Shown here piece by piece: positions 2,519-21,587 of a stretch of 64,000 nucleotides of DNA. Made by a program: the position numbers and the translations under genes. Source of the DNA: Syntrophorhabdaceae bacterium (GTDB lineage Bacteria > Desulfobacterota > Syntrophorhabdia > Syntrophorhabdales > Syntrophorhabdaceae); contig DASXUJ010000048.1 of assembly GCA_036504895.1 (NCBI GenBank), forward strand, positions 1 to 64,000. Reading direction: 5' to 3'. The notes beneath the pieces were generated by a model that did not search any database, was not told where the DNA came from, and was given only the letters and a program-made list of their open reading frames with translations. Position 1 is the first letter of the stretch. Every line of letters begins with the position of its first letter.

Positions 2519-2570
2519 AAGCCCGGTTCTTTCCAGATTACCATGAAGTTTCACCCATAGCGGAGCCGAA

Positions 2571-5500
2571 ATGGAAGAGCATTCCAGCCTGAGAATTCCG
2601 GTTGCCACCTACAGACTGCAGATGAGCCATAGGTTCACCTTCACCGACGGCCAAAAGCTCGTCCCCTACCTTAATGATCTCGGCATTACCGACGTCTACT
2701 CGTCGCCGTGCTTCAAGACCGGAAAAGGCAGCATCAGCGGGTATGACATCGTGGACCCGAACATGCTGGGTCCGGAAATGGGCGGAGAGCCGGCCTTCGA
2801 CCGGTTTATCAAAGAGCTTAAGGCCCATGACATGGGATTCATCCTCGATATCGTTCCCAACCACATGAATGTGGAGAGCGACGAGAATATGTGGTGGATG
2901 GGCGTTCTCGAGAATGGGCCAAGCTCCCCTTACGCGGGTTTCTTCGATATAGACTGGCACCCCACGAAACGGGAGCTTGAAAACAGGGTCCTCATCCCCA
3001 TTCTGGGAGACCAGTACGGAGCGATCCTCGAGAACCAGGAGCTGAGGCTCGGCTTCGAAAAGGGGGCGTTCTTTCTCAGCTATTTCGACCACAGGCTCCC
3101 CATTCTGCCCGAGACCTATAAAGACATATTGAGTCACCGGATCGACGAGGCCCAGACCCTGCCCGGCCGGGACCACCCTGACCTCGCGGAGTTGATGAGC
3201 ATCATCACCGCCCTCACCTGTCTGCCGTCGTATACGGACAAAGACCCGGAAAAGGTCGTCGAGAGGCACCGGGAGAAGGAGATCATCAAGAGGCGGCTCC
3301 AAACCCTTTGCGATCGGAATCCCGCCATACGCGCCTACATAGAAGGGAACGTGGCCATATATAACGGAACGAAAGGAGATGCGAAAAGCTTCAATCTCCT
3401 CGACGACCTTCTCGGCAAACAGGTATGGAGGCTCTCCTTCTGGAGTGTGGCTACCGAAGAGATCAACTACCGGAGGTTTTTCGACATCAACGGCCTGGCC
3501 GCGACACGCATGGAGAATCCGGAAGTATTCACAAAATGCAATGACCTTCTCTCCCGCCTGATCCGTGAAGGTAAGGTCACGGGCCTGAGGATCGATCATC
3601 CTGACGGCCTTTACGACCCTGCGCGGTATTTCAGGGAGCTGCAGGGACTCTGCTTCGTTGAAACCCGTCGGGGCCGGGCCGGGGGCCAAAGCGGGTCCGC
3701 GGCACCCGGAGACGACCCGGAAACAAGGGTCCGGAAGGAGTATGAGGACGCTGTCTCATCCGATCCGCGATTCAAACCATTCTATATCGTGGGCGAGAAG
3801 ATCCTCGCCCGGGACGAAAAGGTGCCGGAGGACTGGGCGATCTTCAGCACCATCGGATATGTATTTCTGAACCCCTTGAACGGCATCTTCATCGAAACCG
3901 GCCACGGCAGGGCATTCGATCGGATCTACGAGCGGTTCATCGGCGAAAAGACCAAGTATGCGGACCTGGTATATGAAAAGAAGAAGCTGATCACCCTCAC
4001 CTCCCTGTCGGCAGAGATCAATGCCCTGGGCCAATTTCTCAACAGGCTTTCCGAAAAGAACCGGCACACGAGGGATTTTACCTTGAACAGCCTAAGGACC
4101 GTGATCATGGAGGTGATCTCCTGCTTCCCCGTGTACAGGACCTATGTGACGGCGGCAGGGGTCGAGGAAAGGGACCGGCGTTACATCGCCCAGGCCGTCC
4201 GGGAAGGGAAGCGGAAGAACCCTGCCCTTAATGCGAGTATCTTCGATTTCCTCCACAGGGTGCTCCTGCTTAAACACCCCGCGGATATGAGCGAGGCTGA
4301 TCGCGCCCAATTGATCGATTTTGTGATGAGATTTCAGCAGGTCACGGGTCCCGTCACGGCAAAAGGGATCGAGGATACGGTCTTTTATGTATACAATAAA
4401 TTCGTCTCCCTCAATGAAGTGGGGGGAAGCCCCGACAAATTCGGTACGACCCTCGATGCCTTTCACCGGCAAAATATGGAGACCTCCATCGAGAGGCCCT
4501 ACTCGCTCGTGACCACCTCAACCCACGATACGAAGCGCGGCGAGGATGCGAGGGCGCGCATAAACGTCCTCTCTGAGATCCCCGATGAATGGCGCACCCG
4601 TGTCACCAGATGGAGCAGGCTCAACAGGAAAAAGAAGCGTATGGCCGATGACCGGCCCGTCCCCGATTCCAATGAGGAGTACCTGCTCTATCAGACGCTC
4701 CTGGCCATATGGCCTCCGGGTGCCGAATTGCCCGGCAGCGAGGAGTATGCCCAATTCATACAGAGGATCAAGGAATACATGCTCAAGGCGATAAGAGAGG
4801 CGAAGATCAACAGCAGCTGGATCAGCCAGGAGCCTTCCTACGAGGAGGGGGTGCTTGGATTTGTGGAGGATATCCTCTCCCGTGCCTCTGCGAATCCTTT
4901 TGTGAAAGACCTGGTAGAATTTCAGGAGAAGATCTCCTATATGGGGATGTTCAATTCCCTCTCCCAGGCCCTCATCAAGATCACGTCACCCGGGGTACCC
5001 GATTTCTATCAGGGGTCCGAGCTGTGGGATCTGAACCTCGTGGACCCGGATAACCGGAAACCCGTAGATTTCAAAATAAGAAAAAACATGCTTTCACGGC
5101 TGAAAAGGCAGGCGGCACTCCATGGGGAGGACCGTTCACGCATGATAAAAAGCCTCCTCTCCACCTGGCCCACGGGCGCCATAAAACTGTACCTCACTTA
5201 CACGGCGTTGGGCTTCCGGAAGGAGAAAGCCTCCCTTTTCAGGGACGGGGCCTATGTCTCTCTCTCATCCGAGGGCACCAGAAGCGAGAATGTGTGCGCC
5301 TTTGCACGATTCAAAGAGAAGAATGCCGTCATTACCGTCGTGCCCAGGTTCCTTACCCACCTCATCGATTCGCCCAGGGACCTGCCTCTCGGAAGAGTCT
5401 GGGAAGGGTCATGGATCACCCTTTCGGACGAGGTGACCGCCAATCTGTTCCGGGACGTTTTTACGGGCAGAGAAATTTTCGCAGTCGAGGAAGGGGGCCG

Positions 5501-5585
5501 CCGCGTCCTGGCCCTCGATCAGGTATTCGCCGGTTTTCCCGTCGCCCTGCTTGAAGGCATGGAAGGTGCGACCCGGGCCGGATAG
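2571..5585 (+). CDS. treY: Malto-oligosyltrehalose synthase TreY
   Basis: GH13 enzyme of 1004 residues that rearranges the reducing-end alpha-1,4 bond of a maltooligosaccharide to the alpha,alpha-1,1 bond of trehalose. It opens with PVATYRLQMSHRFTF, typical of TreY. It carries DIVPNHM near 93, the nucleophile motif GLRIDHPDGL (D342), the acid/base FYIVGEKIL (E409) and TSTHDTKRGED further on. The long insertions between barrel motifs are usual for the family. The start is ATG 2571. With treZ it converts glycogen or maltodextrin into trehalose, an osmolyte or storage sugar. The gene ends 12 bases before the convergent CoA-transferase gene. Confidence 0.95.
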   Translation: MEEHSSLRIPVATYRLQMSHRFTFTDGQKLVPYLNDLGITDVYSSPCFKTGKGSISGYDIVDPNMLGPEMGGEPAFDRFIKELKAHDMGFILDIVPNHMNVESDENMWWMGVLENGPSSPYAGFFDIDWHPTKRELENRVLIPILGDQYGAILENQELRLGFEKGAFFLSYFDHRLPILPETYKDILSHRIDEAQTLPGRDHPDLAELMSIITALTCLPSYTDKDPEKVVERHREKEIIKRRLQTLCDRNPAIRAYIEGNVAIYNGTKGDAKSFNLLDDLLGKQVWRLSFWSVATEEINYRRFFDINGLAATRMENPEVFTKCNDLLSRLIREGKVTGLRIDHPDGLYDPARYFRELQGLCFVETRRGRAGGQSGSAAPGDDPETRVRKEYEDAVSSDPRFKPFYIVGEKILARDEKVPEDWAIFSTIGYVFLNPLNGIFIETGHGRAFDRIYERFIGEKTKYADLVYEKKKLITLTSLSAEINALGQFLNRLSEKNRHTRDFTLNSLRTVIMEVISCFPVYRTYVTAAGVEERDRRYIAQAVREGKRKNPALNASIFDFLHRVLLLKHPADMSEADRAQLIDFVMRFQQVTGPVTAKGIEDTVFYVYNKFVSLNEVGGSPDKFGTTLDAFHRQNMETSIERPYSLVTTSTHDTKRGEDARARINVLSEIPDEWRTRVTRWSRLNRKKKRMADDRPVPDSNEEYLLYQTLLAIWPPGAELPGSEEYAQFIQRIKEYMLKAIREAKINSSWISQEPSYEEGVLGFVEDILSRASANPFVKDLVEFQEKISYMGMFNSLSQALIKITSPGVPDFYQGSELWDLNLVDPDNRKPVDFKIRKNMLSRLKRQAALHGEDRSRMIKSLLSTWPTGAIKLYLTYTALGFRKEKASLFRDGAYVSLSSEGTRSENVCAFARFKEKNAVITVVPRFLTHLIDSPRDLPLGRVWEGSWITLSDEVTANLFRDVFTGREIFAVEEGGRRVLALDQVFAGFPVALLEGMEGATRAG

Positions 5586-5596
5586 AGGGGTTCAGA

Positions 5597-6355
5597 TTAA
5601 AGCATGAGCCGCTGGGGGTCCACCTCTTCCCTGAGAATCCGGAGTTCCTCAGGCGAAGGGGGCCGCGCTTCCACTGCCCGCGATACGTCGAGGGGGAACC
5701 CCGTATTTTCTATAATTTTCTCTATCGGGACTCCAGGGTAGTACTCGGCGAGATAGGCCTCCTTTGTCTCGTCGTCGAACCTGAGGACGCCGAGGTCGGT
5801 CACCACTGCGAGGGCCCCTCCGCGCTCGAGTCCGAGGCGTTTTCTCGAATCGCCCCCTTCGTGCCATCCCACGCTCGTCCGGTAGTCAAGCCGATCGACG
5901 AACCTCCTGCGTTCATGCCGGATAAAGGTGACGACGCCCGAGGCAAAGGACGATACGTCACAGGCGCCGCCGCTTCCCGGGAACCGGGCGGAGGGCCTGA
6001 GATAATCGCCAAGGCTTGTGGTATTCAGATTTCCGAACCTGTCGATCTGGGCGGCGCCCAGGAAGGCGATGGTGTGGAGCCGCCTGTGGCCGACGATTGA
6101 AAAGGCTTCGATAAGGCCGGAATTGAGCGCGGTCCCGCTCATGACCCTGAGATCGGAGACCGCCATCGGGATTTCGTCGAGCAAGGGATCGATGCCGCCG
6201 GTCTCGAAGAAGATCACTGCCCGGGGGGAATAGATCCTTTTCGCCGCGGTGGCGGCGAGCATGGAGACCCCCGTGCCCGCGAAGAGAATATCACCGTTTT
6301 TTGTGAGCCGCCCTGCGCTCAAGGCCATCATCTCGTTGTCCGTATAATCTTTCAT
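5597..6355 (-). CDS. CoA-transferase, beta subunit (glutaconate CoA-transferase GctB type)
   Basis: Family I CoA-transferase subunit of 252 residues, partner of the gene just upstream. Seen are LFAGTGVSMLAA near 25 and FFETGGIDP near 49; the Glu of that motif is a good candidate for the catalytic residue that forms the glutamyl-CoA intermediate in GctB, by analogy. The C-terminal GVPIEKIIENTGFPLDV is characteristic of the group. A GAGGGGAAAG ribosome site precedes the ATG, and only 9 bases separate it from the alpha gene. The two subunits should swap CoA between acyl groups; the substrate is not readable from sequence. Confidence 0.85.
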   Translation of the reverse strand: MKDYTDNEMMALSAGRLTKNGDILFAGTGVSMLAATAAKRIYSPRAVIFFETGGIDPLLDEIPMAVSDLRVMSGTALNSGLIEAFSIVGHRRLHTIAFLGAAQIDRFGNLNTTSLGDYLRPSARFPGSGGACDVSSFASGVVTFIRHERRRFVDRLDYRTSVGWHEGGDSRKRLGLERGGALAVVTDLGVLRFDDETKEAYLAEYYPGVPIEKIIENTGFPLDVSRAVEARPPSPEELRILREEVDPQRLML

Positions 6356-6364
6356 TCTTTCCCC

Positions 6365-7342
6365 TCATTTCCTGTCGAGGCCTACTGCGTAGCCCACAAT
6401 GGGATTCGCCCGTATCCTCATGAGCTCTTTAGCCCCGGCCTTTTCAAGGTACGCCTCGTGAGAGGAGACGCCGTAGACCCAGTCGTCGAGGTATCTCTTC
6501 CACCCTGCGTTCTCATGTGCCATGGCCTTATAGAGCTTGAGGTGGGTCGGGTCGTAATCGTAAAACCCGTAACAGGCAGTTGGATGGGCGCCGTATTGCA
6601 CCCGGACGATGGCGTCCACAAAGAAAGAAGGGAGTGAATTCTGGTCCGGGTCGAGGCGTATGAACGAGCGGGGGACGATCTCCTCGCAGGTGACGATCAC
6701 CCTGTCCGCCGATTTCGCCTGCTCCACGTCGGCGAAGGTGAGGCCCTTTATCCTCACCGTCCCGTCTTCCCCCACGTACTGGGCGTGCATGAGGGCCACA
6801 TCCGGGTTGGCGGCAGGCAGGAGCACCACGTTATCCTCCTTGTCGCTGAAAGGGTCCTCGGCGACAAGGCACTTCCTCCGGGCCACCTTCCTCTGCCTTC
6901 TCGTCTCGGGAGAGAAACCTTCCTTTGTGATGATATCGGAGCCGAGGCCCGACTTCGTAGGTATGAAGGGGAGGCCCAGGGCGCCCGCGAGAAAGCGCAG
7001 GCTCATCTGATAGTTTGAGTAATCCTCGAACTCGATGAGGCCCTCTTCGATGGCCTTCCGGAAACGGATGCACGTAGGAGCGTACCTGCCGTTGCCCCCG
7101 TAGGCGATCTCCAGGCGCTTCACGCACCCTGCGCCTATAAGGAGATCGAGGGCCTGGCCGTGGGAATGGCATATGAGGTGGAGGTCGGTCACGCCCTGGC
7201 GCGCGATCTCGTATGCGAGCGCCATGGGGTTCCGGTTGACGGTGAACCCCCCGAGGGTAATCTGGGAACCCTTCTCCACGAACCTCTTTACCGCCTCTTC
7301 GAGGCTCATCAGCTTGTCGGCTATTTCAGGATATTTGTTCAT
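6365..7342 (-). CDS. CoA-transferase, alpha subunit (GctA type)
   Basis: Alpha subunit of a glutaconate-type CoA transferase. It opens NKYPEIADKLMSLEEAV, followed by KGSQITLGGF, the usual start of GctA homologues. I chose ATG 7342 because GGGAGG lies about nine bases upstream and homologues begin here. The frame extends to an ATG at 7423, which also has a GGAGG but with 12-base spacing, so a 27-residue extension is possible. A TTGACA box lies near 7470 on this strand without a convincing -10. The beta gene follows after 9 bases. Confidence 0.85.
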   Translation of the reverse strand: MNKYPEIADKLMSLEEAVKRFVEKGSQITLGGFTVNRNPMALAYEIARQGVTDLHLICHSHGQALDLLIGAGCVKRLEIAYGGNGRYAPTCIRFRKAIEEGLIEFEDYSNYQMSLRFLAGALGLPFIPTKSGLGSDIITKEGFSPETRRQRKVARRKCLVAEDPFSDKEDNVVLLPAANPDVALMHAQYVGEDGTVRIKGLTFADVEQAKSADRVIVTCEEIVPRSFIRLDPDQNSLPSFFVDAIVRVQYGAHPTACYGFYDYDPTHLKLYKAMAHENAGWKRYLDDWVYGVSSHEAYLEKAGAKELMRIRANPIVGYAVGLDRK

Positions 7343-7595
7343 GTGAGTCGAATCCTCCCGCGGATGCCGTGACCCGGTCGGCAGGGCTATCCTGCTTGGT
7401 CCGGAAGACAGCGCTCCTTTCATTTTAGCGGTACACCTCCTTATTTCATATCAAAACCCTGATTGTCAAGAACAATGTAGTTTTACAGAAAGGGAGGCGC
7501 GGGGCAGTGAGGGGAGAAGGCTTCGGACAACAGTAACAGGCGCCCCTGCCGGATCGAACCGGAGAGCGCGCCCTGATTTCTTTGATGGGCGGCGC

Positions 7596-9471: not shown

Positions 9472-12400
9472 TTACCTGCACGAGACGAAGCGCACGTTGG
9501 CGAGGGAAGTCTCTATTGTCTCTTCCAGCAGGCGGACCACCTCCGCCACCTCATCTTCCTTATTTTCGATGCCGAGGGAAAACCTGAGGGAGCAGTGGGC
9601 CTCTTCTTTGGAGAGCCCCATGGCGAGCAGCGCCTGGGAGGGCTCGGGCGAGCCCGACTTGCAGGCCGATCCCGAGGAAAAGTAGACGCCTTGCGAATCG
9701 AGGGCATAGACCACCGACTCTCCCCGCAGGCCGGGAAGGGTCACATTGAGCGTATTGGGGAGCCTTTTTTCCGGATGGCCGTTTACACGGGCGCTCGGTA
9801 TTATACGGCAGATCCCTTCACAGAGGAGGTCGCGCATAGTGCGCACCCGGCCCTCCATCTCCGGCAGGTCCTGGAGTGCGAGCCCTGCCGCCACTCCCAT
9901 GCCCGCGATACCTGCCGTATTCTCCGTCCCTCCCCTTAAGCCGCCCTCCTGCTTTCCCCCGTGGATGAGGGGCGGGATCTCCATTCCCTTGCGGATATAG
10001 ACGGCGCCCGTCCCCTTGGGTCCGCCGAATTTGTGGGCCGAAAGGGTGAGGAAGTCAACGCCCCATTCGTCAGCGTGTATTACCATCCTGCCTGCCGCCT
10101 GGACTGCGTCCGTGTGGAAAGGGACGCCCCGCTCCCGGGCAATGCGCGCAAGCTCGGAGATCGGCTGGAGAGAGCCTGTTTCGTTATTTGCGGTCATGAC
10201 GCTCACGAGACAGGTGCGCTCCGTGATCGCCTGGGACAGCTCTTCCGGGTTGATTACTCCGTAATGATCGACCGGAAGATAGGTCACGGAAAAGCCCCGG
10301 GTTTCAAGCCATTGGCAGATGCCGGTCACGGAGGGGTGCTCGATCGTGCTCGTGATGATATGGGTCTTCTCCGGGGCGGACACACGGGCTATGCCGTGGA
10401 TGACGAAATTGTTTCCCTCCGAGCCCCCGCTTGTAAAGACGAGGCGGCGCGGTGTGCAGCCCACGAGAAGGGAGAGGGCCTTCCTGGTTGCCTCGATCGC
10501 GTCATGGGCAACCCGGCCTGCCTTGTGGATGCTCGACGGATTTCCATAGGTCGTGAGGAATTCCGCCATGAACGTGCGCACCTGAGGGTGGAGGGGAGAC
10601 GTGGCGTTGTGGTCGAAATATATGGACTTTCGGACGGTTTCAGGGACCTTTTCTTCGAGCATGTATTCGCCGGAGCCCGCCATTTCCCGTTTCTTCCCAT
10701 CCCCGACCTTGAGCACATCGCACAGAAGTGCCTTATAGGTGGGGAACCCCGAGATAGGATCGTAGTTATTGAGGTCGGTGAGCTCATTGACCCATGCCTC
10801 CCGCCACTCGTGGGCATCGGGGGAGGCGCCCCCCGAGCCGCTTGCCTCCACCGCGCCCCGCACGATATCATCCGTTACGAGGGCGTACATGGAGACCTCT
10901 CCCCGGGTCGTACGTATGAGCACCTTTTCGCCGTGGACGATCCCCCGTTTTTCCGCATCGACCGTGTTTATCATTACCGTGGGCACGGGCTGCTCGCCGG
11001 CGAGAGACGGAATCGATTGATTGAGGGCGTGGAGGTCCACATTGTGGAAGGCGCCGGAATTGAAAACCAGGGGAAAGGTTTCCGCCAGCCGCGGGTCCGA
11101 CGCGGGACTTTCGCGGGGCTCGACGTAGCGCGGAAGAGGCTCGTACCCGTACTCTTCGAGCACGGATGAGGCGATCTCGAATTTTCCCGAGGGCGTGGCG
11201 AAGCCCGGCTTCCCGTCATTGCGCAGCAGCCCCTTTTCCCATTTCCTGTACTCCATCATCTGCCCCTTGACCCGCACGAGCCCGCCGGCATTGCGTACAT
11301 CTTCAGGGGTGAATCCCGAGCCGGAAAGCACGTAGGAGAGGAGCTCCTCTGCGGTTTGAGGGTAAAGCTCTCCGTAGCCGAGCCTGCGCGCCAGCTCGGC
11401 TTGAATGAAGAAGTCGTATCGGGCCTCCCCCACGGACTCGATCATCTTCTCCCTTATCCTGAAGGCCCCATCGTAGACCATGTACGATTCCGTCTCGTAA
11501 TAGGTGGCCGCGGGAAGGACGATGTCCGCGTAGGCCATATCTCCGGTCCATTGGCGGTCCACGGACACGAAGAAATCGAGGGCGCCTAACGTCTTCTTCC
11601 AGAGGCTCGTGTGGGGCCACGAAGTGGTGAGCGACGCCCCGAGGCTCAGCAGGAACCGGATGGGGTAAGGGTCGTGTTCCAGTATGGCCTTCGGCAGCGC
11701 AATGGCATGGAACTCGCCGCGGTACTTGGTATAGAGGGGGAAGTCGTTATGGCCCGCCGCCTTTTCCACGCGCGGGTTCGCGAGCAGGTTCGCCCGGTTG
11801 ATGGGAAACCTGGCGCCCTTCATCTTGAAACACTGGCCCCCCGGCATATCGAGCTGCCCTGCGAGGGCCCAGAGGGTGAGGACCGCACGTATGGTCTGAA
11901 CCCCGTTGCCGTTATATTCGAGGCCCCTGTACATGACCGGGGCCGCGCCGTTGGCTCCGGCGATCCTCCGTGCCAGAGAGATCATCGTCTCCCCGTCCAC
12001 CCCGGTAATCTGCTCCACGTAGTCAGGCCTGAAATGCTGGACGTAATCTCTGAATTCATCAAACCCATCGGTCCATTGCCGCGCGAAAGCCTCGTCATAA
12101 AGCTCCTCCTCTATGAGGACATTGCACATGCCGAGGGCAAGGGCGCCGTCCGTACCCGGCCTCAAGGGGACCCAGAGGGTATCCTGTTCGCGGGCAAGGG
12201 CGGTCCGCCGGGGATCGATCACCACGATCCCGGCCCCGCGGCCCCTGGCTGCCTGGATCCGAAGGAAATCGTCGGGCGGGCAGCTGGCGGCAGGGTTCTT
12301 CCCCCACACCACGATCAATTCCGCACGCTCGATGTCGGAGATCATATCTATGTATATGCTTCCGAAGGTCACATGGGGGGCGATCATGGCAAAGGCGACA

Positions 12401-12855
12401 TAGCAAAGAGCTCCCACTCCCAGGGTATTGGGCGAACCGAAGGGGAAAAGCACGCTCGAAGCGGAGGAAACTGCGACCCCGGCGGGCTGAAACACGTCGC
12501 ACAAAGCCCTGTCGAAACTCCCGCTTCCCGTGTAAATGGCGGCTGCCTCAGGGCCCGATTCCGCCCTTACCTGCATGAGTCTTGCGACGATCTCGTCGTA
12601 TGCCTCATCCCAAGAGATCCTCTTGAAATCGTACGTTCCTTTGGGACCGGTCCTTCGCAGGGGATGGGGGATCCTCTGAGGGCTGTATACGATCTCCGGG
12701 GAGTGCTCGCCGATCCTGCAGATCATTCCGAAGGGGGAGGTCTCGTCAGCCCTCACCGCCCTCATGCGGCCCTGCGGATCATAGGTGACGATAACCCCGC
12801 ATCCTGCCGAGCAGATCCCGCAGAGGCCCGCCTTTTCGTTCTGCCCCAATCCCAT
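9472..12855 (-). CDS. Metallopterin-dependent ergothioneine synthase-like fusion (molybdopterin oxidoreductase + cysteine desulfurase)
   Basis: One uninterrupted frame of 1127 residues. Residues 1-720 form a DMSO-reductase-family molybdopterin oxidoreductase: [4Fe-4S] ligands C12, C15, C19 and C46; a GSPNTLGVGALC region where C151 is a candidate metal ligand; and a dinucleotide-binding domain from about 595 to 715. After a short linker, residues 744-1127 form a complete PLP cysteine desulfurase of NifS/IscS type: YFDHNATSP, TSGGSEGNN, TIEHPSV (H840), SAHKFGG (K942, PLP lysine) and SSGSACKSG (C1065, persulfide Cys). This architecture is that of metallopterin-dependent ergothioneine synthase (described from Caldithrix abyssi), which inserts cysteine-derived sulfur into hercynine. 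The adjacent egtD, only 9 bases upstream, supports this role. Mo versus W, and the activity itself, are inference. Confidence 0.85.
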   Translation of the reverse strand: MGLGQNEKAGLCGICSAGCGVIVTYDPQGRMRAVRADETSPFGMICRIGEHSPEIVYSPQRIPHPLRRTGPKGTYDFKRISWDEAYDEIVARLMQVRAESGPEAAAIYTGSGSFDRALCDVFQPAGVAVSSASSVLFPFGSPNTLGVGALCYVAFAMIAPHVTFGSIYIDMISDIERAELIVVWGKNPAASCPPDDFLRIQAARGRGAGIVVIDPRRTALAREQDTLWVPLRPGTDGALALGMCNVLIEEELYDEAFARQWTDGFDEFRDYVQHFRPDYVEQITGVDGETMISLARRIAGANGAAPVMYRGLEYNGNGVQTIRAVLTLWALAGQLDMPGGQCFKMKGARFPINRANLLANPRVEKAAGHNDFPLYTKYRGEFHAIALPKAILEHDPYPIRFLLSLGASLTTSWPHTSLWKKTLGALDFFVSVDRQWTGDMAYADIVLPAATYYETESYMVYDGAFRIREKMIESVGEARYDFFIQAELARRLGYGELYPQTAEELLSYVLSGSGFTPEDVRNAGGLVRVKGQMMEYRKWEKGLLRNDGKPGFATPSGKFEIASSVLEEYGYEPLPRYVEPRESPASDPRLAETFPLVFNSGAFHNVDLHALNQSIPSLAGEQPVPTVMINTVDAEKRGIVHGEKVLIRTTRGEVSMYALVTDDIVRGAVEASGSGGASPDAHEWREAWVNELTDLNNYDPISGFPTYKALLCDVLKVGDGKKREMAGSGEYMLEEKVPETVRKSIYFDHNATSPLHPQVRTFMAEFLTTYGNPSSIHKAGRVAHDAIEATRKALSLLVGCTPRRLVFTSGGSEGNNFVIHGIARVSAPEKTHIITSTIEHPSVTGICQWLETRGFSVTYLPVDHYGVINPEELSQAITERTCLVSVMTANNETGSLQPISELARIARERGVPFHTDAVQAAGRMVIHADEWGVDFLTLSAHKFGGPKGTGAVYIRKGMEIPPLIHGGKQEGGLRGGTENTAGIAGMGVAAGLALQDLPEMEGRVRTMRDLLCEGICRIIPSARVNGHPEKRLPNTLNVTLPGLRGESVVYALDSQGVYFSSGSACKSGSPEPSQALLAMGLSKEEAHCSLRFSLGIENKEDEVAEVVRLLEETIETSLANVRFVSCR

Positions 12856-12864
12856 GCTATCTCT

Positions 12865-13902
12865 CTATGCCCCTTCCGGTCCGGACGCCATGGAAGAGTG
12901 CCGCCGGTACAGGGCGACGGCGAAAAACGCGTCTTCATCGGTCCACAGGCCGATTGGCTCGAGGCCCGCACTACGGGCCATCCCGTCAAAGCCGGGGATC
13001 GTATGTTTATAAGAGTTTTCAGTATGAATACGCTCCCGGGCCCGGAAACCGATTGTCTCTCCGGCAACCCTCACCTTTTGGGGTACAAGACTCTCCAGAT
13101 GCATCTCGATCCGTCCCCTCGAGTCGTTGTAGAAGGCGATGTGCCTGAAGGCGGTCACGTCGAAATCCGCCCCCAGCTCGCGGTTAAGGCGGGTAAGGAG
13201 GTTCAGGTTGAAAGCCGACGTAACCCCTGCCGCATCATTATAGGCGCGCTCCAAAAAATGAGGGTGTTTTTGAAGGTCGTACCCGATCAACAGCATGCCC
13301 TCCTCTTCCAGGAGATCCGCGAATTCGGCGAGCAGGCGGAATGTGGCCGCCGGCTCGAAGTTCCCTATACTGGAGCCGGGATAGAAGATTAGCCGCGTGC
13401 CGTTACCGGGCAGCGCCTTCCTGAGCTGCGCCAACTCCGCGAGGAAGTCCATTGCCACGGCGTTCACCGATACCTCCGGAAACGCGAGGGCCACCCCTGT
13501 GGCCGCGTCGATAAGATGGCGCGACGAGATGTCGACAGGGACGAAGGTGGAGACCGCCCCCGTCCCGAGCATGAGCCTTGCCTTACGGCACGCGCCCGCG
13601 CCGGGTTCTATGAGACAGAGGTCGCCGCCGGTCCGACTGAGTATCTCATCGACATGGCGAGTGAGGATCGCCATCTCCGTGCGGAAGAGGTAGTACTCGG
13701 GGGTTTCGCATATTTGCTCGAAAAGGGCTGACCCCTTTTCGTCATAGAGGTATTTGGGGCTGATGGTCTTGGGTGTTGACCGCAGCCCTTCCAGAACCTC
13801 CCTTGCCATGGACCCTGAAATCCCCGGCATGCGGGCTGCCGTGAAATTGTCGGATCCATTCCCGTGCCTGCCCATTTGCTTAACCATAAATACGCCTTCC
13901 AT
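12865..13902 (-). CDS. egtD: L-histidine N-alpha-methyltransferase EgtD
   Basis: SAM-dependent enzyme of 345 residues that trimethylates histidine to hercynine, the first step of ergothioneine synthesis. Family marks are TISPKYLYDEKGSALFEQIC near 46, TPEYYLFRTE, the SAM loop LIEPGAGACRKARLM, PVDISS and YPGSSIGNFEP. An AGGAG lies six bases before ATG 13902. It is the first gene of a pair: the molybdopterin/cysteine desulfurase fusion starts 9 bases after its stop. Aerobic partners EgtB, EgtA, EgtC and EgtE are absent, which fits an oxygen-independent route. Confidence 0.92.
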   Translation of the reverse strand: MEGVFMVKQMGRHGNGSDNFTAARMPGISGSMAREVLEGLRSTPKTISPKYLYDEKGSALFEQICETPEYYLFRTEMAILTRHVDEILSRTGGDLCLIEPGAGACRKARLMLGTGAVSTFVPVDISSRHLIDAATGVALAFPEVSVNAVAMDFLAELAQLRKALPGNGTRLIFYPGSSIGNFEPAATFRLLAEFADLLEEEGMLLIGYDLQKHPHFLERAYNDAAGVTSAFNLNLLTRLNRELGADFDVTAFRHIAFYNDSRGRIEMHLESLVPQKVRVAGETIGFRARERIHTENSYKHTIPGFDGMARSAGLEPIGLWTDEDAFFAVALYRRHSSMASGPEGA

Positions 13903-15029: not shown

Positions 15030-15344
15030 ATGCGCGATATCATCCAGAAGATCATGGCGACCGAAAATGAGGCGAGGCTCATTGTCGAAGAGGCGGGGGC
15101 CGAAGCCGAGCGTATCCTGTCAGACGCCCGCAAGCAAGGGCAGGCGCTCATAGAAGCGGCCCGCCGCGAAGGGCTTGCTCAGGCCGAAAGGACCGTGGGG
15201 ACAGCAATAGAAGAGGCGGAGAAAGAAAAGGAGCGCCGCCTTTCCCGGGCCGCGGAAGAGATCGACCGGGAGGTCCGGCTCGAGAAAGACAGGAAGGAGT
15301 CGGTCATCGAGGGGGTGGTGCGATGCGTATGCCGACTGCCATAG
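15030..15344 (+). CDS. V/A-type ATPase subunit H (peripheral stalk, G/H type)
   Basis: The 104-residue protein is almost entirely a charged Ala/Glu/Arg-rich helix (coiled coil from about residue 10 to 95), as in the H/G subunits that pair with subunit E in the peripheral stalk of V/A-ATPases. It opens the ATPase gene set and overlaps the next gene by 22 bases. Sequence alone would be ambiguous with other coiled coils; context makes the call. Confidence 0.75.
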   Translation: MRDIIQKIMATENEARLIVEEAGAEAERILSDARKQGQALIEAARREGLAQAERTVGTAIEEAEKEKERRLSRAAEEIDREVRLEKDRKESVIEGVVRCVCRLP

Positions 15345-16429
15345 CCGACTCAGGCTCCGCGTGGGAACGACACGCGCCCCTGAACCTCGATTTTCTTGCG
15401 GTAAGCCTCCACGCACGGCGCAGCCGTATGGCCGAGGGGAAACGACTTGACGACATTAGCCGTATACGCAGCATGCCCGACCTTGTCCATGCCTTATTTC
15501 CGAAGACGGAGCTGAGTCGCCCTTCCGAGTTTCAGCGTCTCCTGGTCGACGAGCTGGTCCGTGAGCTGTCCGGTTTCACTATCCATCTTTTCGGGCCGGG
15601 AGCTCACCTGTTCAACTGGCTCCTCCTCCGGTTTCAGATGGAGAACCTCAAGGTACTGTTGAGGGCCGTCCTTACGGAGAAGCCTTTGATCGACCCGGAG
15701 GAGTACCTTATCGGCCTTCCTAAGGGCCTGGCAATCGACACCCGCGGCCTGGCAACGGCCCGGTCGCTTCAGGATTTTGTGCGGCTCATACCGAGGGGGC
15801 CGATTCGGGCTTATCTCGAAAAAGTAATTGCTCTCTACGATGATCATCCGCGCCCCTTCTTCCCGGAAGCAGCCCTGGATCAATTTTATCTCAAGGGATT
15901 GATGGCTAGGGTAGAGGCGCTCGCATGGGAAGACCGGGCGATTATCATGCCCATGATGCGTCAGGAAGCAGATATCTTTCTTCTCATGCTCGTGGTCCGG
16001 GGGAAATTTCACTATGGCCTGACGCCGGATATCCTCCTGCCCCTCCATATCCCGGCTGCGAGAATTTCGCGAACCCTCTTCACCCAAATGACCGCTGATA
16101 GCGACTTGAACACCGCGGTCATGCGTGCGGCGGGGAAGGTCCTCGATGAGATGCCCCCGGAGTGCGCTGCAGACGGCGGTTCGGTGGCAGAGACAATAGA
16201 AAGCGCGATTGTGGAGCGTCTCGCCTGGAGGCGATTCCTCCGCCTGTCCAACCTTGCCTTCCGCCGGAGCCACATCGGGCTTGGGACCGTGATGGGATAT
16301 ACCGGCCTGCGTCGCATGGAAGTGGCCAATCTCACCACGATTTCAGAAGGAATCGGGGGCGGGCTCTCCCCGGAGGCGATCCGGGTGCGCCTCATATCCC
16401 CGGCCGGGACGGAGGCGGCTCATGTTTAG
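15323..16429 (+). CDS. atpC: V/A-type ATPase subunit C (d, rotor-socket subunit)
   Basis: The 368-residue, mostly helical protein is of the V-ATPase C/d (AC39) family, which couples the central stalk to the membrane ring. Recognisable are FNWLLLRFQMENLKVLLRA near 98, LIGLPKG, and the C-terminal LRRMEVANLTTISEGI with repeated ENLK-type helices. Both flanking genes overlap it (22 bases upstream, 8 bases downstream), so translation is coupled. The N-terminal 25 residues are variable, and the exact start (ATG 15323 or in-frame ATG 15329) is uncertain. Confidence 0.88.
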   Translation: MRMPTAIADSGSAWERHAPLNLDFLAVSLHARRSRMAEGKRLDDISRIRSMPDLVHALFPKTELSRPSEFQRLLVDELVRELSGFTIHLFGPGAHLFNWLLLRFQMENLKVLLRAVLTEKPLIDPEEYLIGLPKGLAIDTRGLATARSLQDFVRLIPRGPIRAYLEKVIALYDDHPRPFFPEAALDQFYLKGLMARVEALAWEDRAIIMPMMRQEADIFLLMLVVRGKFHYGLTPDILLPLHIPAARISRTLFTQMTADSDLNTAVMRAAGKVLDEMPPECAADGGSVAETIESAIVERLAWRRFLRLSNLAFRRSHIGLGTVMGYTGLRRMEVANLTTISEGIGGGLSPEAIRVRLISPAGTEAAHV

Positions 16430-18380
16430 ACCTGTCTCCATGGTGAGGCTCGACGCAATCGTCCTTGAGCGGGATCAGTCAAAAGTGTTGAGGGACCTGG
16501 GAAATCTCGGGGTAATTCAGCTTACACGCACAAGGCCGGAACCCGACTGCGCGTCCCTTGCCGCCCGCGACCTTGCCCAATGGGACCGCGTGAGGGCTCG
16601 CGCCGCGGATCTCCGCCAGTCTTTGGGCATTGCCCCGTTGCCTGAAGAGCCGGAGGTGAAAGAGATCAGCCTGGCCCGCGCCGAAGAGGGGCTTCAATCA
16701 ATCGAGGAAAAGGCTTCAGCCCTCCTGGAGCATCGCCGCCGCCTCGTCCAGCGACAAAAGGAGCTGACCGCACTCTGCGATCAGGTATCCTGCTATAGCG
16801 GTCTCGACCTTCCGCTCGGAGCGTCCGACCGGTTCCGGTTTCTCCATTTCGTCACAGGAAGCCTGCCGGAGGAGAAGCTCGCAGGGCTGGAAAAAGAAGC
16901 GGGAGAGAAGGTGGCGCTCCTTCCCGCCGCCCTTCGGAAAGGACGGCGCTCCCTCGTGGCGATCACCACCCTCGAGGACGCATCCGCCCTTCAACAGGTG
17001 CTTGAGCGGGCCGGTTTTCAGCACGAGGCCCTCCCCGCAGAGCCGGAGACCACGGTAGAGAGCTTCTCCGAGGAAAAAGCCGGCGAGCGGGAGGAGACGG
17101 CAGTCGAGCTGGAGCGCGTGGCAGGAAGCCTTCGGGAGCTCACGGAGGAGGCAGCGGGTGCGCTCCACGAGCTCGAACGGGGGGCTGACGTCGAATGCCG
17201 GCTCCTGGAGGAGGCACGAAAATGTTCGCGCACTGAAGCGGCGGTCATGCTCTCGGGCTGGCTCCCGGCAGATAACATGGCCCATCTCGAGGAGCGGATC
17301 AGGGAAAAGACGGGCGGCAGGTATGCGGTCCGGGCGACCCCTCCCGATGCCTCATCAGAGGAGGAGGTGCCGGTATTACTGCGCCATTCGCGGCTCCTGC
17401 GCCCCTTCGAGATGCTGGTCTCCAACTATGGCTTCCCCAGCTATGGTGAGCTGGAGCCGACGCTCTTCGTGGCCCTGAGCTATATCGTCATGTTCGGCAT
17501 GATGTTCGGCGATGCGGGTCACGGCGCGGTCCTCGCCGCATGCGGTCTTTTCGCGCTCCTGAAAAGCCCTTCTGCAAAAGTACGGGATTTCGGCCTCCTC
17601 CTTCTCTTCGGGGGCTCGTCGAGCATCATCTTCGGGGCCATATACGGGAGCGTCTTCGGCATCGCCTTCTTCAAGCATTACGCCCTCTGGCACGATCCCC
17701 TGGAGGGCGACCCCATGCAGCTCATGTACCTCGCCATCGGGTTCGGAATGGTAATGATAAGCCTCGGCCTCGTGCTCAATATGGTGAACAGATTTCAGCG
17801 GGGCGATGTGATCGGCGGCCTTCTCGGCAGGTTCGGTGTCATGGGCCTCATATTCTACTGGGGAGCCCTTTTTCTGGTCATCGCGGGACCTGCCGTCCGG
17901 TCGCGGGGTCTTATGCTCATCGCCGTCCTGCTCCTCCTGGGGGTTCCCATCCTGGCATGGGCGATAAAAGAACCCCTCGAGCATATCCTCCGCCGAAAGG
18001 CTTCCCATGAAGGCGCAGAAGGAGGGATGGCTGCCGCACTGATAGAATCCCTCGTGGGCGCATTTGAAGGGGTGCTTGGCTACCTTGCCAATACGATAAG
18101 CTTCGTCCGTCTTGCGGCATACGCCATGAGCCATGCGGCCTTACTGGTTGCGGCGTTCGTTCTTGCCAAAGAGCTGGAGGGCCTTCCCCTTGGCAGCGTG
18201 TGGGGCGTCGTCGTAATCATTCTGGGCAATATGATCGCCATAGTTCTTGAAGGCATCATTGCCTCGGTGCAGGCGCTGCGTCTCGAGTATTACGAGTTCT
18301 TCGGCAAATTCTTTTCCGGCAGCGGCCAACCTTTCAAGCCTTTCAGGCTGTTCTCGGAGGACCGGTCCCCGGCGCCGTAG
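16422..18380 (+). CDS. atpI: V/A-type ATPase subunit I (a subunit, ion channel stator)
   Basis: The 652-residue protein has a cytoplasmic N-terminal half (about 1-330) with coiled-coil segments that anchors the peripheral stalks, and a C-terminal half with seven to eight membrane helices from about 345. The conserved stretch NTISFVRLAAYAMSHA carries the essential Arg (R563) that faces the rotor Glu; FGMMFGDAGHG near 365 is also family-typical. It overlaps subunit C by 8 bases. Its size is normal for bacterial I subunits. Confidence 0.95.
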   Translation: MFRPVSMVRLDAIVLERDQSKVLRDLGNLGVIQLTRTRPEPDCASLAARDLAQWDRVRARAADLRQSLGIAPLPEEPEVKEISLARAEEGLQSIEEKASALLEHRRRLVQRQKELTALCDQVSCYSGLDLPLGASDRFRFLHFVTGSLPEEKLAGLEKEAGEKVALLPAALRKGRRSLVAITTLEDASALQQVLERAGFQHEALPAEPETTVESFSEEKAGEREETAVELERVAGSLRELTEEAAGALHELERGADVECRLLEEARKCSRTEAAVMLSGWLPADNMAHLEERIREKTGGRYAVRATPPDASSEEEVPVLLRHSRLLRPFEMLVSNYGFPSYGELEPTLFVALSYIVMFGMMFGDAGHGAVLAACGLFALLKSPSAKVRDFGLLLLFGGSSSIIFGAIYGSVFGIAFFKHYALWHDPLEGDPMQLMYLAIGFGMVMISLGLVLNMVNRFQRGDVIGGLLGRFGVMGLIFYWGALFLVIAGPAVRSRGLMLIAVLLLLGVPILAWAIKEPLEHILRRKASHEGAEGGMAAALIESLVGAFEGVLGYLANTISFVRLAAYAMSHAALLVAAFVLAKELEGLPLGSVWGVVVIILGNMIAIVLEGIIASVQALRLEYYEFFGKFFSGSGQPFKPFRLFSEDRSPAP

Positions 18381-18473
18381 CCGAAGGATCACGCCGTCCG
18401 GAGGCCGGGACCCGGGCGGGCGGAAAAGAGAGTATGGGCCGGGCGCTTTAGCCCGCAAGAGGGGAGGTGTCAT

Positions 18474-18818
18474 ATGAGAAAGACGTCATACTGGCGAATA
18501 GGACCATGGGGAGCAATTCTCACGGGGGTAATCCTGCTCGGTACTGCCATGGCGGAGGAGGCCGCGAAGACAGGCGGTGCGTCGGCCGACCAGAATGGGG
18601 CGATCAGGAGCATCGGCTTTGCCGTGGGCGCCGCCCTCGCCATAGGTTTCAGCGTCCTCGGCGCGGGATACGCGGTGGGCCGCATCGGTTCCGCGGCGTT
18701 GGGGTTGGGGGCGGAGAAACCGGAGCTCCTCACCCGGTCCATCCTCTTTGTGGCCCTGGCTGAAGGATTGGCCGTGCTCGGCTTTGCTATTGCCATGATG
18801 CTGGTGCAGAAGATTTAG
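18474..18818 (+). CDS. atpK: V/A-type ATPase subunit K (c-ring proteolipid)
   Basis: The 114-residue proteolipid has an extra N-terminal hydrophobic segment (about 11-27, possibly a cleaved signal), then the two-helix hairpin. The rotor carboxylate is E97 in FVALAEGLAVLGFAIA. Helix one (SIGFAVGAALAIGFSVLG) shows no Gln of the kind used for sodium binding, which favours proton coupling, by analogy and not proven. It has a single hairpin, unlike duplicated eukaryotic or Enterococcus K subunits. AGGGGAGGTGTCAT precedes the ATG. Confidence 0.93.
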   Translation: MRKTSYWRIGPWGAILTGVILLGTAMAEEAAKTGGASADQNGAIRSIGFAVGAALAIGFSVLGAGYAVGRIGSAALGLGAEKPELLTRSILFVALAEGLAVLGFAIAMMLVQKI

Positions 18819-18828
18819 GAGGCATTGC

Positions 18829-19137
18829 GTGCAGTTTGTATGTATCGGCGATGAGGAGACGGCGCAGGGGTTCAGGCTGGCAGGCATCACGGTAATGGTG
18901 GTTTCCACCGCCGAGGAGGCTTCTACCGCGATGGAGGATAGTCTGGCACGTCCTGATTGCGGGATGGTGATCATTACCCAGACCGCGGCCTCCTTGATCC
19001 GGCCGAAGGTGGAGGAGATCCGTCTCGAGCGGGACCATCCGCTCATTGTGGAGATACCCGGTCCTGACGGACCATTGCCCGGACGGAGGAGTCTCCGTGA
19101 ATTTGTGGCTGAGGCCGTGGGTGTGACGGTGGGATAG
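18829..19137 (+). CDS. atpF: V/A-type ATPase subunit F
   Basis: The 102-residue subunit belongs to the central stalk together with D. It opens FVCIGDEETAQGFRLAGI and has IITQTAASLI near 48, both diagnostic for F. The start is GTG 18829, placed by TAGGAGG about six bases upstream; it follows subunit K after 10 bases. The last residues are shorter than in many F subunits but the core is complete. Confidence 0.92.
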   Translation: MQFVCIGDEETAQGFRLAGITVMVVSTAEEASTAMEDSLARPDCGMVIITQTAASLIRPKVEEIRLERDHPLIVEIPGPDGPLPGRRSLREFVAEAVGVTVG

Positions 19138-19149
19138 GAGGTATTCGGA

Positions 19150-19803
19150 ATGGCGGTGAATCCGGATTCTGCGCATCTGTTATGCGAAGAGATCCTTGCC
19201 GTGGCGAGGACGCAGGCCGAAGAGATCCTTGCCGTGGCGAACAGGGAGGCGCGGGCCCTACTGGATCAGGCCGCTTTTCAGGCCAGCAAGGCCCGGGAGG
19301 AGGAGGATGACCGGGCGCGGACCGAGGCTGCCCGGCGAAGGGAGATCGTCGCGGCGACGATCGAGGTGGAGATCGGCAGGCTTCACTCGGAGAGGGTGGA
19401 AGTGATGCTTGAGTCCATCTATCACGAAGCGTACCGGCGGCTCGAGATGCGCGAAGGATTCGAATACAGGGAGACCCTCGTCGGACTTGCCTCTGCCGTG
19501 ATAGGCAGGACAACAGGGGATCAGTTCGTGATAAAGATCTCGGAGGCCGACCGCGCCATATTCGGAGACGGAGCGCTCCGGGAGATCCTGGGGAGGGCCG
19601 AAAGGCCGGCAATCGAGGTGAGTGTCGCCTATGAGTCCGATTTTACGGGAGGCGGCATCGTGGTGGAAGACCGGGAGGCGCGCAGGGTCTGGGATAACCG
19701 TCTTATAAAGAGACTCGAGCGGATGTGGCCGGAGCTGCGGCGACTCATCGCGGCGAAGGTGTCCGTTATCCCGAACGCAGAATCAGGAGGGGACGGCCCA
19801 TGA
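19150..19803 (+). CDS. atpE: V/A-type ATPase subunit E (peripheral stalk)
   Basis: The 217-residue protein has an N-terminal Ala/Glu/Arg-rich coiled coil (about 8-95) and a globular C-terminal domain with FTGGGIVVEDREARRVWDN near 158-176, the usual E-subunit signature that contacts subunit B. TAGGAGGTATTCGG precedes the ATG. Its stop overlaps the ATG of subunit A (ATGA), so the two are translationally coupled. Confidence 0.9.
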   Translation: MAVNPDSAHLLCEEILAVARTQAEEILAVANREARALLDQAAFQASKAREEEDDRARTEAARRREIVAATIEVEIGRLHSERVEVMLESIYHEAYRRLEMREGFEYRETLVGLASAVIGRTTGDQFVIKISEADRAIFGDGALREILGRAERPAIEVSVAYESDFTGGGIVVEDREARRVWDNRLIKRLERMWPELRRLIAAKVSVIPNAESGGDGP

Positions 19804-21587
19804 CGGCATCGACACCGTTCGTTGAACCGACGGCGATCCGCATCAGCGGCCCCATCGTAACTGCCGAAGGGATGGCCGACGCGGGGATGTATGAAGTGGT
19901 GCAGGTGGGGAGTCTCGGACTCATAGGCGAGGTGGTGCGTCTCGTGGGGGACCGGGCCACCATCCAGGTCTATGAGGATACCACCATGCTCAAGCCCGGC
20001 GCGCCCATCCGGCGTACCGGTGCTCCCCTTACCGTGTGGCTCGGCCCGGGGCTTCTCGGGAATATCTATGACGGCATCCAGCGTCCCTTGCCCGGTATCC
20101 AGGCGCGAAGCGGCGCATGGATCCGCCGCGGCGAGAAAGTAGACCCCCTCGATCTGGAGAAATATTGGACCTTTGAGCCGTCGGTTTCGGCGGGTGACCT
20201 GGTGGGGGCGGGCAGGACCATAGGAACGGTCGAGGAGACGCCTCTCGTCTCCCACCGGATCATGATCCCGCCGGACATTTCGGGCGTGGTGAAATCGATA
20301 AAGGAAAGGGGAGAATACAGCCTGAAAGAGACCCTCGCCGTCATCGAGACCTCGACCGGCCCCAGGGAAGTGACCATGCTGCAGCGGTGGCCCTCCCGGC
20401 TGCCTCGCCCCATTTTCGAGCGGCTAAGGATCACGGAGCCGCTGATCACGGGGCAGCGCATCATCGACACCTTCTTCCCTATCGGCAAGGGCGGAGCCGC
20501 GGCCATCCCCGGCGGGTTCGGTACGGGAAAGACGATTACCCAGCACCAGCTCGCGAAATGGTCGAATGCCGAGATCATCGTCTTCATCGGATGCGGGGAG
20601 CGGGGGAATGAGATGACCGAGGTGCTCCGCGAATTTCCGGAGCTCAAGGACCCCCGCTCGGGAAGGCCCCTCATGGAGCGGACCATCCTGATCGCCAACA
20701 CTTCGAACATGCCCGTGGCAGCGCGGGAGGTATCGATCTACACGGGCATCACCCTCGCCGAATACTACAGGGATATGGGGCTCAGCGTGGCGGTCTTCGC
20801 CGATTCGACCAGCCGCTGGGCGGAGGCCCTGAGAGAGCTGGCCGCGCGCCTCGAAGAGATGCCTGCGGAGGAGGGCTTCCCCGCTTCCCTGCCCACGCGG
20901 CTCGCCCAGTTCTACGAGCGGGGAGGAGCGGTTACCACCCTGGCGGGAGAGCGCGGCTCCGTGAGCATCGTGGGTGCGGTCAGCCCGCCCGGCGGGGACT
21001 TTTCGGAGCCCGTGACCCAGCATACGCGCCGGTTCATACGCTGCTTCTGGGCCCTCGACACCGAGCTGGCCAATGCGCGCCATTATCCCTCGATTCACTG
21101 GCTTCACTCCTACTCGGAGTACGTGGAGGACGTGGGCCCGTGGTGGAAGAAAGAAGATCCCGACTGGACAGAGCAGCGCACCGAGGCATTGACCCTCCTC
21201 CAGCGCGAGGAGCGCCTCCAGCAGATAGTGAAGCTTGTCGGACCCGATGTACTGCCCGATGCACAGCGCCTGATCCTTTTTGTGGCGGAGATCATGAAAG
21301 ACGGCTTTCTGGCCCAGAGTGCCTTTGATCAGAACGACATGTATTGCGCCCCCGAGAAGCAGGTCGGACTGCTGCGCATCATTCTCACCCTCTATCGGAG
21401 GGCCCGGGACCTCATCCAGGAGGGCGTCCCCTTAAGCCGGATCAGGGGCCTGGGCTGTGTCTCCCATGTGCTCCGGGCAAAGGCCGCCTTCGGGAATGAC
21501 GAGCCCGAAAGGATGAAAGGACTGGAGCAGGAAGTTCTCGCGGAAATCGAGACCCTTGCCAGGGAATACGGGAGGAAGGCCTCGTGA
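19800..21587 (+). CDS. atpA: V/A-type ATPase catalytic subunit A
   Basis: The 595-residue catalytic subunit has the P-loop GGFGTGKT at 238-245 with [13 protein letters not shown] just before it, [15 protein letters not shown], the non-homologous bulge region near 110-190, and [14 protein letters not shown]. The start is ATG 19800, overlapping the stop of subunit E and preceded by AGGAGG. The frame also extends upstream to 19725, but that part lies inside subunit E in another frame and is not used. It hydrolyses ATP to pump, or makes ATP from, an ion gradient across the membrane. Confidence 0.96.

Follow-up and report, generated by a model that had tools for sequence, protein, structure and literature searches.

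An egtD–mes gene pair very probably devoted to oxygen-independent ergothioneine synthesis in a Syntrophorhabdaceae genome, and a sister enzyme lineage beside an OvoM-like methyltransferase

The 64,000-nucleotide stretch analyzed here (the window), from a Syntrophorhabdaceae bacterium (GenBank assembly GCA_036504895.1), carries on its minus strand two neighboring genes, egtD and mes, that very probably make up an operon for the synthesis of ergothioneine without O2. The first encodes a histidine N-alpha-trimethyltransferase (EgtD) and the second a metallopterin-dependent ergothioneine synthase (MES), in which an acetylene-hydratase-like module of the dimethyl sulfoxide (DMSO) reductase family is fused to a NifS-like class V aminotransferase/cysteine desulfurase. 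This reading has strong support from the order of the domains, a complete complement of functional residues, the adjacency of the genes and their genome-wide co-occurrence. The locus thereby adds a well-supported example to the kind of MES and EgtD system already known from Caldithrix abyssi, whose fusion enzyme (CaMES) makes ergothioneine in E. coli (Beliaeva & Seebeck 2022, PMC9516567). An earlier note on this DNA had described a single 1127-residue frame nine bases after egtD, and we confirmed it: 12855..9472 follows 13902..12865, both on the minus strand. The features of the locus are:

12865..13902, minus strand: egtD, histidine N-alpha-trimethyltransferase, 345 aa, first gene of the predicted operon (TIGR03438 at 367.2 bits; PF10017; solved structures; substrate residues)
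12856..12864, minus strand: intergenic spacer of nine bases, AGAGATAGC, from the egtD stop (TAG) to the mes start (ATG)
9472..12855, minus strand: mes, predicted MES, 1127 aa, ATG start (Pfam, alignment, AlphaFold model)
10681..12855, minus strand: N-terminal metallopterin module, residues 1-725 (Fe4S4 ligands C12, C15, C19, C46; predicted metal ligand C151)
9475..10635, minus strand: C-terminal NifS/IscS-like cysteine desulfurase, residues 741-1127 (pyridoxal 5'-phosphate (PLP) lysine K942, persulfide cysteine C1065, C1088, tail cysteine C1126)
9475..9504, minus strand: flexible C-terminal tail, residues 1118-1127 (penultimate C1126, predicted second persulfide carrier; predicted local distance difference test (pLDDT) below 50)

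Architecture and functional residues of MES and EgtD

Pfam assigned three domains to MES: Molybdopterin (PF00384, residues 61-490), Molydop_binding (PF01568, 604-709) and Aminotran_5 (PF00266, 745-1105). The AlphaFold model reached a mean pLDDT of 87.5, and fold searches against the PDB placed acetylene hydratase 2E7Z at the top for the N-terminal module (E = 1.1e-51, 25% identity) and NFS1/IscS desulfurases at the top for the C-terminal one. The alignment took in 15 further full-length fusions built the same way, with 54-73% identity to the window protein; they come from contigs of Thermodesulfobacteriota, Calditrichota, Latescibacterota, Planctomycetota and KSB1, and they rule out misassembly or a chance fusion. 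Formate dehydrogenase identity is ruled out both by fold, acetylene hydratase being nearest, and by score, since the match to the Fdh-alpha model TIGR01591 (252 bits) fails the equivalog cut-off of 666. The scenario that the earlier note had named as its own undoing, true formate dehydrogenases fused by misassembly, therefore does not apply.

All six residues highlighted in that note (C12, C15, C19, C46, K942 and C1065) lie exactly where it had placed them, and we identified two further functional residues: the predicted metal ligand C151, which lies in GALCYVAF and is the same in all 16 MES aligned, and C1126, the penultimate cysteine in the tail, within the VSCR-stop that ends the protein. 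C151, K942 and C1065 never vary among the 15 aligned relatives, and C1126 is a cysteine in every intact aligned MES, missing only in L109, whose frame ends early. Following the published numbering, CaMES C14, C17, C21, C48 and C153 correspond to window C12, C15, C19, C46 and C151, and CaMES K952, C1074, C1097 and C1135 to window K942, C1065, C1088 and C1126, so that all nine residues have counterparts at near-constant offsets. In CaMES, K952, C1074, C1135 and C153 are required, the C153 Ser mutant yielding almost no ergothioneine, and C1097 matters little, with a two-fold effect of C1097S (PMC9516567); the Gly found at the C1088 position in L104 is as expected from this mild effect. Model confidence falls below pLDDT 50 over residues 1118-1127, which would fit a mobile carrier arm bearing C1126.

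Window EgtD scored 367.2 bits against TIGR03438 (equivalog cut-off 290.9) and 343.8 bits against PF10017, and the solved structures closest to it are those of M. smegmatis EgtD. Its Y71/N181/Y221/E295/S297 align with Y56/N166/Y206/E282/S284, the substrate residues of the M. smegmatis enzyme. Two EgtD proteins of family f17 (L108, L110) carry Ala at the M. smegmatis Ser284 position (VEIARKF), a substrate-pocket change beside MES.

By analogy with the characterized C. abyssi enzyme, the source of the cofactor, sulfur relay, chemistry and product proposed here, EgtD would trimethylate histidine to hercynine (N-alpha-trimethylhistidine, TMH) with S-adenosylmethionine (SAM). The desulfurase module of MES, with PLP on K942, would move the sulfur of cysteine to C1065 as a persulfide; this sulfane sulfur would pass to the tail cysteine C1126 and on to the Mo/W bis-molybdopterin guanine dinucleotide centre held by C151, where a metal sulfide would deliver it to C2 of the TMH imidazole. 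The net conversion would be cysteine and TMH to alanine and ergothioneine, without an external oxidant. The route from histidine through hercynine to ergothioneine with cysteine as sulfur donor, as the earlier note had it, is strongly supported by residues, adjacency and co-occurrence. Its proposal that the pterin centre replaces O2 as oxidant was not borne out: because L-cysteine + hercynine to L-alanine + ergothioneine is redox-balanced, nothing need replace O2 as final oxidant, and the oxidizing equivalent would be the sulfane sulfur from the desulfurase, in line with the mechanism proposed in PMC9516567.

Distribution of the pair and alternative readings

We surveyed 297 genomes of the phylum and found MES in 11 (10 full, 1 fragment) and EgtD in 15. 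All 11 MES genomes encode EgtD, and just four have EgtD without MES (Fisher p = 4e-17): two carry EgtB beside EgtD (G056, G018), one an EgtD-EgtB fusion (G092), and in the last (G198) no partner was seen. The two genes adjoin each other in the window and in L001 and L002, as they do in ten other genomes. Within the order, MES occurs in 1/39 genomes of the host family, the host itself, and in two of a sister family, a patchy distribution that makes gain by transfer likely. G+C is even along the contig that holds the window, and composition shows no sign of recent transfer.

Gene order is egtD-mes in the window, L001 and L002, and mes-egtD in G047 (L104) and others. The MES tree unites the window, L001 and L002 with L104 (support 100/100); in the EgtD tree they lie apart from it, and forcing the grouping was rejected (approximately unbiased test, p = 1.4e-5). 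Monophyly of MES was supported at 75/76 only. Because the two trees conflict and the gene order flips, the pair has thus been assembled more than once, with EgtD exchanged or re-recruited beside MES, and this repeated assembly is independent evidence that EgtD and MES work together.

Several observations weigh against the ergothioneine reading. The Calditrichota metagenome-assembled genome (MAG) CLD2 (L003) has a full-length MES and no EgtD match in 5.9 Mb, reflecting either genome incompleteness or the use of imported hercynine. The Microthrixaceae MAG nzgw87 (L006) also has MES and no EgtD match in the genome; here the MES contig is probably mis-binned, since it is 6.6 kb long at coverage 1.9, comes without EgtD and groups with Latescibacterota/KSB1. 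The correspondence with CaMES runs through published numbering, the alignment having been made to relatives rather than to the C. abyssi protein itself. Finally, the host genome encodes, on another contig (G000:C114, L147:1717-3582), a 621-aa, exported-looking, four-rhodanese protein resembling EanB and YnjE.

The last protein raises the alternative that EgtD and this rhodanese make ergothioneine while the MES fusion does something else, which we regard as very improbable. Its best PDB matches are EanB entries (31% identity), it retains the equivalents of EanB C412/Y353/T414/R417, and among the 39 family genomes it occurs only in the host, precisely the MES-bearing one. However, it is about as far from EanB as from E. 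coli YnjE (30%), those two being mutually closer (38%), and the four residues do not discriminate because YnjE has them too. A signal-peptide-like segment at the N-terminus suggests that it is probably exported, apart from cytosolic TMH, and it is unlinked to egtD, and none of the other MES genomes tested has it. On these sequence features it does not look like a convincing EanB. The absence of EanB claimed in the earlier note thus holds for the window, and elsewhere in the genome this distant relative is present; the absence of EgtB, also claimed there, extends to the whole host genome, with 0 matches to PF03781 (FGE-sulfatase sulfoxide synthase).

An ordinary DMSO-reductase-family, formate-dehydrogenase-like enzyme, with a desulfurase that only installs the sulfido ligand and an incidental egtD, would agree with the many models of that family matched by the metallopterin module, TIGR01591 among them. 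This too is most unlikely, given the shortfall from the formate dehydrogenase cut-off, acetylene hydratase as nearest solved relative, the strict co-occurrence with EgtD in a pair formed more than once, and the requirement of CaMES for its desulfurase in turnover, beyond activation (PMC9516567). There is barely any likelihood, in our view, that MES mainly runs in reverse or exchange and treats ergothioneine, imported or stored, as a reserve of sulfur: CaMES K952A does swap sulfur between ergothioneine and TMH, the last step being reversible (PMC9516567), but a purely degradative role would need neither the intact desulfurase nor the co-encoded EgtD.

The window locus resembles MES of C. abyssi and relatives in domain order and in having a co-encoded EgtD, and its enzyme has the Fe4S4 and metal-ligand cysteines, the PLP lysine, the persulfide cysteine and the penultimate cysteine of the tail in common with them. 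It differs in that egtD lies upstream instead of downstream and comes from another branch of the EgtD tree, and in its host, which has respiratory oxidases, MES being otherwise rare in its Thermodesulfobacteriota family. EanA/EanB of Chlorobium limicola is likewise O2-independent and includes an EgtD-type methyltransferase, whereas EanB is a multi-rhodanese that uses polysulfide and has no metallopterin and no PLP domain. Acetylene hydratase and the DMSO reductase family, the closest solved fold of the N-module, lack both a desulfurase and a link to EgtD, and catalyze hydration or oxygen transfer.

MES has been described as exclusive to anaerobes (PMC9516567), and the earlier note took the host for a strict anaerobe. 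The genome does not support a strictly anaerobic host, as it encodes CydAB (CydA at 531.9 bits by PF01654, CydB above its cut-off) and a NorB-type nitric oxide (NO) reductase. It also encodes a cbb3-like oxidase that has a fused FixO/cytochrome c subunit and scores below the ccoN equivalog cut-off. The oxidase and NO reductase genes lie on contigs C111, C11 and C64 (L190, L188, L189).

A desulfurase-less sister lineage and its methyltransferase

A search with the MES N-module also retrieved metallopterin enzymes that have no desulfurase domain and are about 700-740 aa long. Five of them, 49-51% identical to window MES (L008 from Desulfatibacillum alkenivorans DSM 16219, L113, L114, L116 and L117), form a clade beside MES in the tree, and an older set of six lies further out. 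These sisters do not qualify as MES, having neither a fused desulfurase nor EgtD in the genome; EgtD was found in 0/10 genomes with desulfurase-less relatives. All five end, after an aspartate, in (P/A)(S/T)LGCVG, with LGCVG invariant, a type of tail not present in the outer six. Sulfur carriers built around a cysteine on a C-terminal arm are established: in DsrC the penultimate cysteine of the flexible tail becomes persulfurated (PMC3397948), and E. coli TusE ends in PVKCI. Stand-alone MES-like enzymes (L118-L123, L201, L202) make up a further, older set, 42-47% identical and without EgtD, in which no tail cysteine was present where checked and no conserved neighbor was found.

Directly upstream of all five sisters lies a gene for a SAM methyltransferase of 313-318 aa, at gaps of 9, 19, 21, 23 and 26 bp:

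L008:5024-8199: methyltransferase and desulfurase-less MES sister, two-gene unit, Desulfatibacillum alkenivorans DSM 16219; likewise in L113, L114, L116 and L117

Copies of this methyltransferase at >= 54% identity, that is at least 54%, occur in only those five among the 297 genomes. In every Desulfobacterota member tested its best NCBIfam match was TIGR04345, the OvoA C-terminal domain, at 88-114 bits, with 88-113 for the copies upstream of the five sisters, under the 170-bit cut-off, followed by the Trm112 ribbon at 32-51. A 29-sequence profile against the PDB retrieved OvsM, OvoA and OvoM at 2e-31 to 3e-29, with the next match at 4e-12. In the structural model (mean pLDDT 91.9), the top 11 Foldseek matches were all OvoA/OvoM/OvsM (1e-18 to 1e-21); the target-normalised template modelling (TM) score was about 0.84 for OvsM/OvoM. 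The next family followed at 1e-10. This gap, in profile and fold alike, disfavors a generic class I methyltransferase. The OvoA segment SPYTW...WLGG aligns with SDPFSW...WLGG of the methyltransferase, and the OvoA domain matched (OvoC in PMC12631010) methylates 5-thiohistidine to ovothiol A. OvoA, OvoM and OvsM, N-methyltransferases of 5-thiohistidine or 5-selenohistidine, are thus its nearest solved relatives; it differs from them in scoring below the TIGR04345 cut-off, in an N-terminal Trm112-like zinc ribbon and in having no sulfoxide-synthase domain. The window locus itself has no such OvoM-like methyltransferase.

Relatives at 36-43% identity occur in 28 other genomes. In 12 of these (L179, L194, L196, L204, L205, L207-L210, L214, L215, L218) the relative stands beside a second acetylene-hydratase-type enzyme, about 31% MES-like and with the N-terminus CRLCSxCCP; in seven (L191, L193, L206, L216, L217, L219, L220) its neighbor is a B12-binding radical SAM enzyme (about 680 aa), with an M19 dipeptidase near several. 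This choice of partners mirrors the pairing of EgtD with three unrelated sulfurases (EgtB, EanB and MES). Plasmid methyltransferases with a Trm112-like ribbon (L223:5965-7098, L225:3881-4960) lie beside PAAR/VgrG type VI secretion genes and show that the broader OvoM-like family is not confined to ovothiol.

Possibly, though with considerable doubt, MES belongs as one branch to a broader group of O2-independent histidine-thiol synthases, the sisters and their OvoM-like methyltransferase, encoded in a two-gene operon, giving ovothiol A or a close relative. In such a pair the metallopterin enzyme would sulfurise histidine at the imidazole and the methyltransferase would then N-methylate it, and the LGCVG tail could carry a persulfide as the DsrC tail does. 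The sisters either lost the desulfurase or never had it, and sulfate reducers rich in sulfide or persulfide may need none built in. Counting against ovothiol are the methyltransferase score below the OvoA cut-off and the type VI secretion-associated relatives on plasmids; no report of an anaerobic ovothiol pathway was found in the open-license literature.

Surroundings of the locus and significance

The whole window sits inside a 102-kb contig. Just upstream of egtD and divergent from it begins a set of V/A-type ATPase genes (15323-21587, plus strand; subunits C, I and A identified, with small subunits between). Further genes include adjoining treZ and treY (malto-oligosyltrehalose trehalohydrolase and synthase; 653-5585, plus strand), for trehalose from glycogen, and a CoA-transferase-like two-subunit pair (5597-7423, minus strand) that weakly matches 3-oxoacid CoA-transferase A and B. 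An Rfam search of the window for a molybdenum cofactor (Moco) or other riboswitch found nothing, and a promoter/terminator scan gave no signal above chance.

The locus is of interest because of the host that carries it, because the pair was put together repeatedly and, most of all, because of the prediction about the sister lineage. MES in a host with cytochrome bd and cbb3-like oxidases indicates that O2-independent synthesis need not imply life without O2, and defense against oxygen or NO is a reasonable candidate role for ergothioneine there. The repeated assembly of egtD and mes provides genetic evidence for the pathway beyond a single characterized enzyme. If true, ovothiol synthesis by the sister lineage would be the first O2-independent route to 5-thiohistidines known to us and would explain the role of the desulfurase-less relatives, and metallopterin C-S bond formation would be a general chemistry, not a single curiosity.

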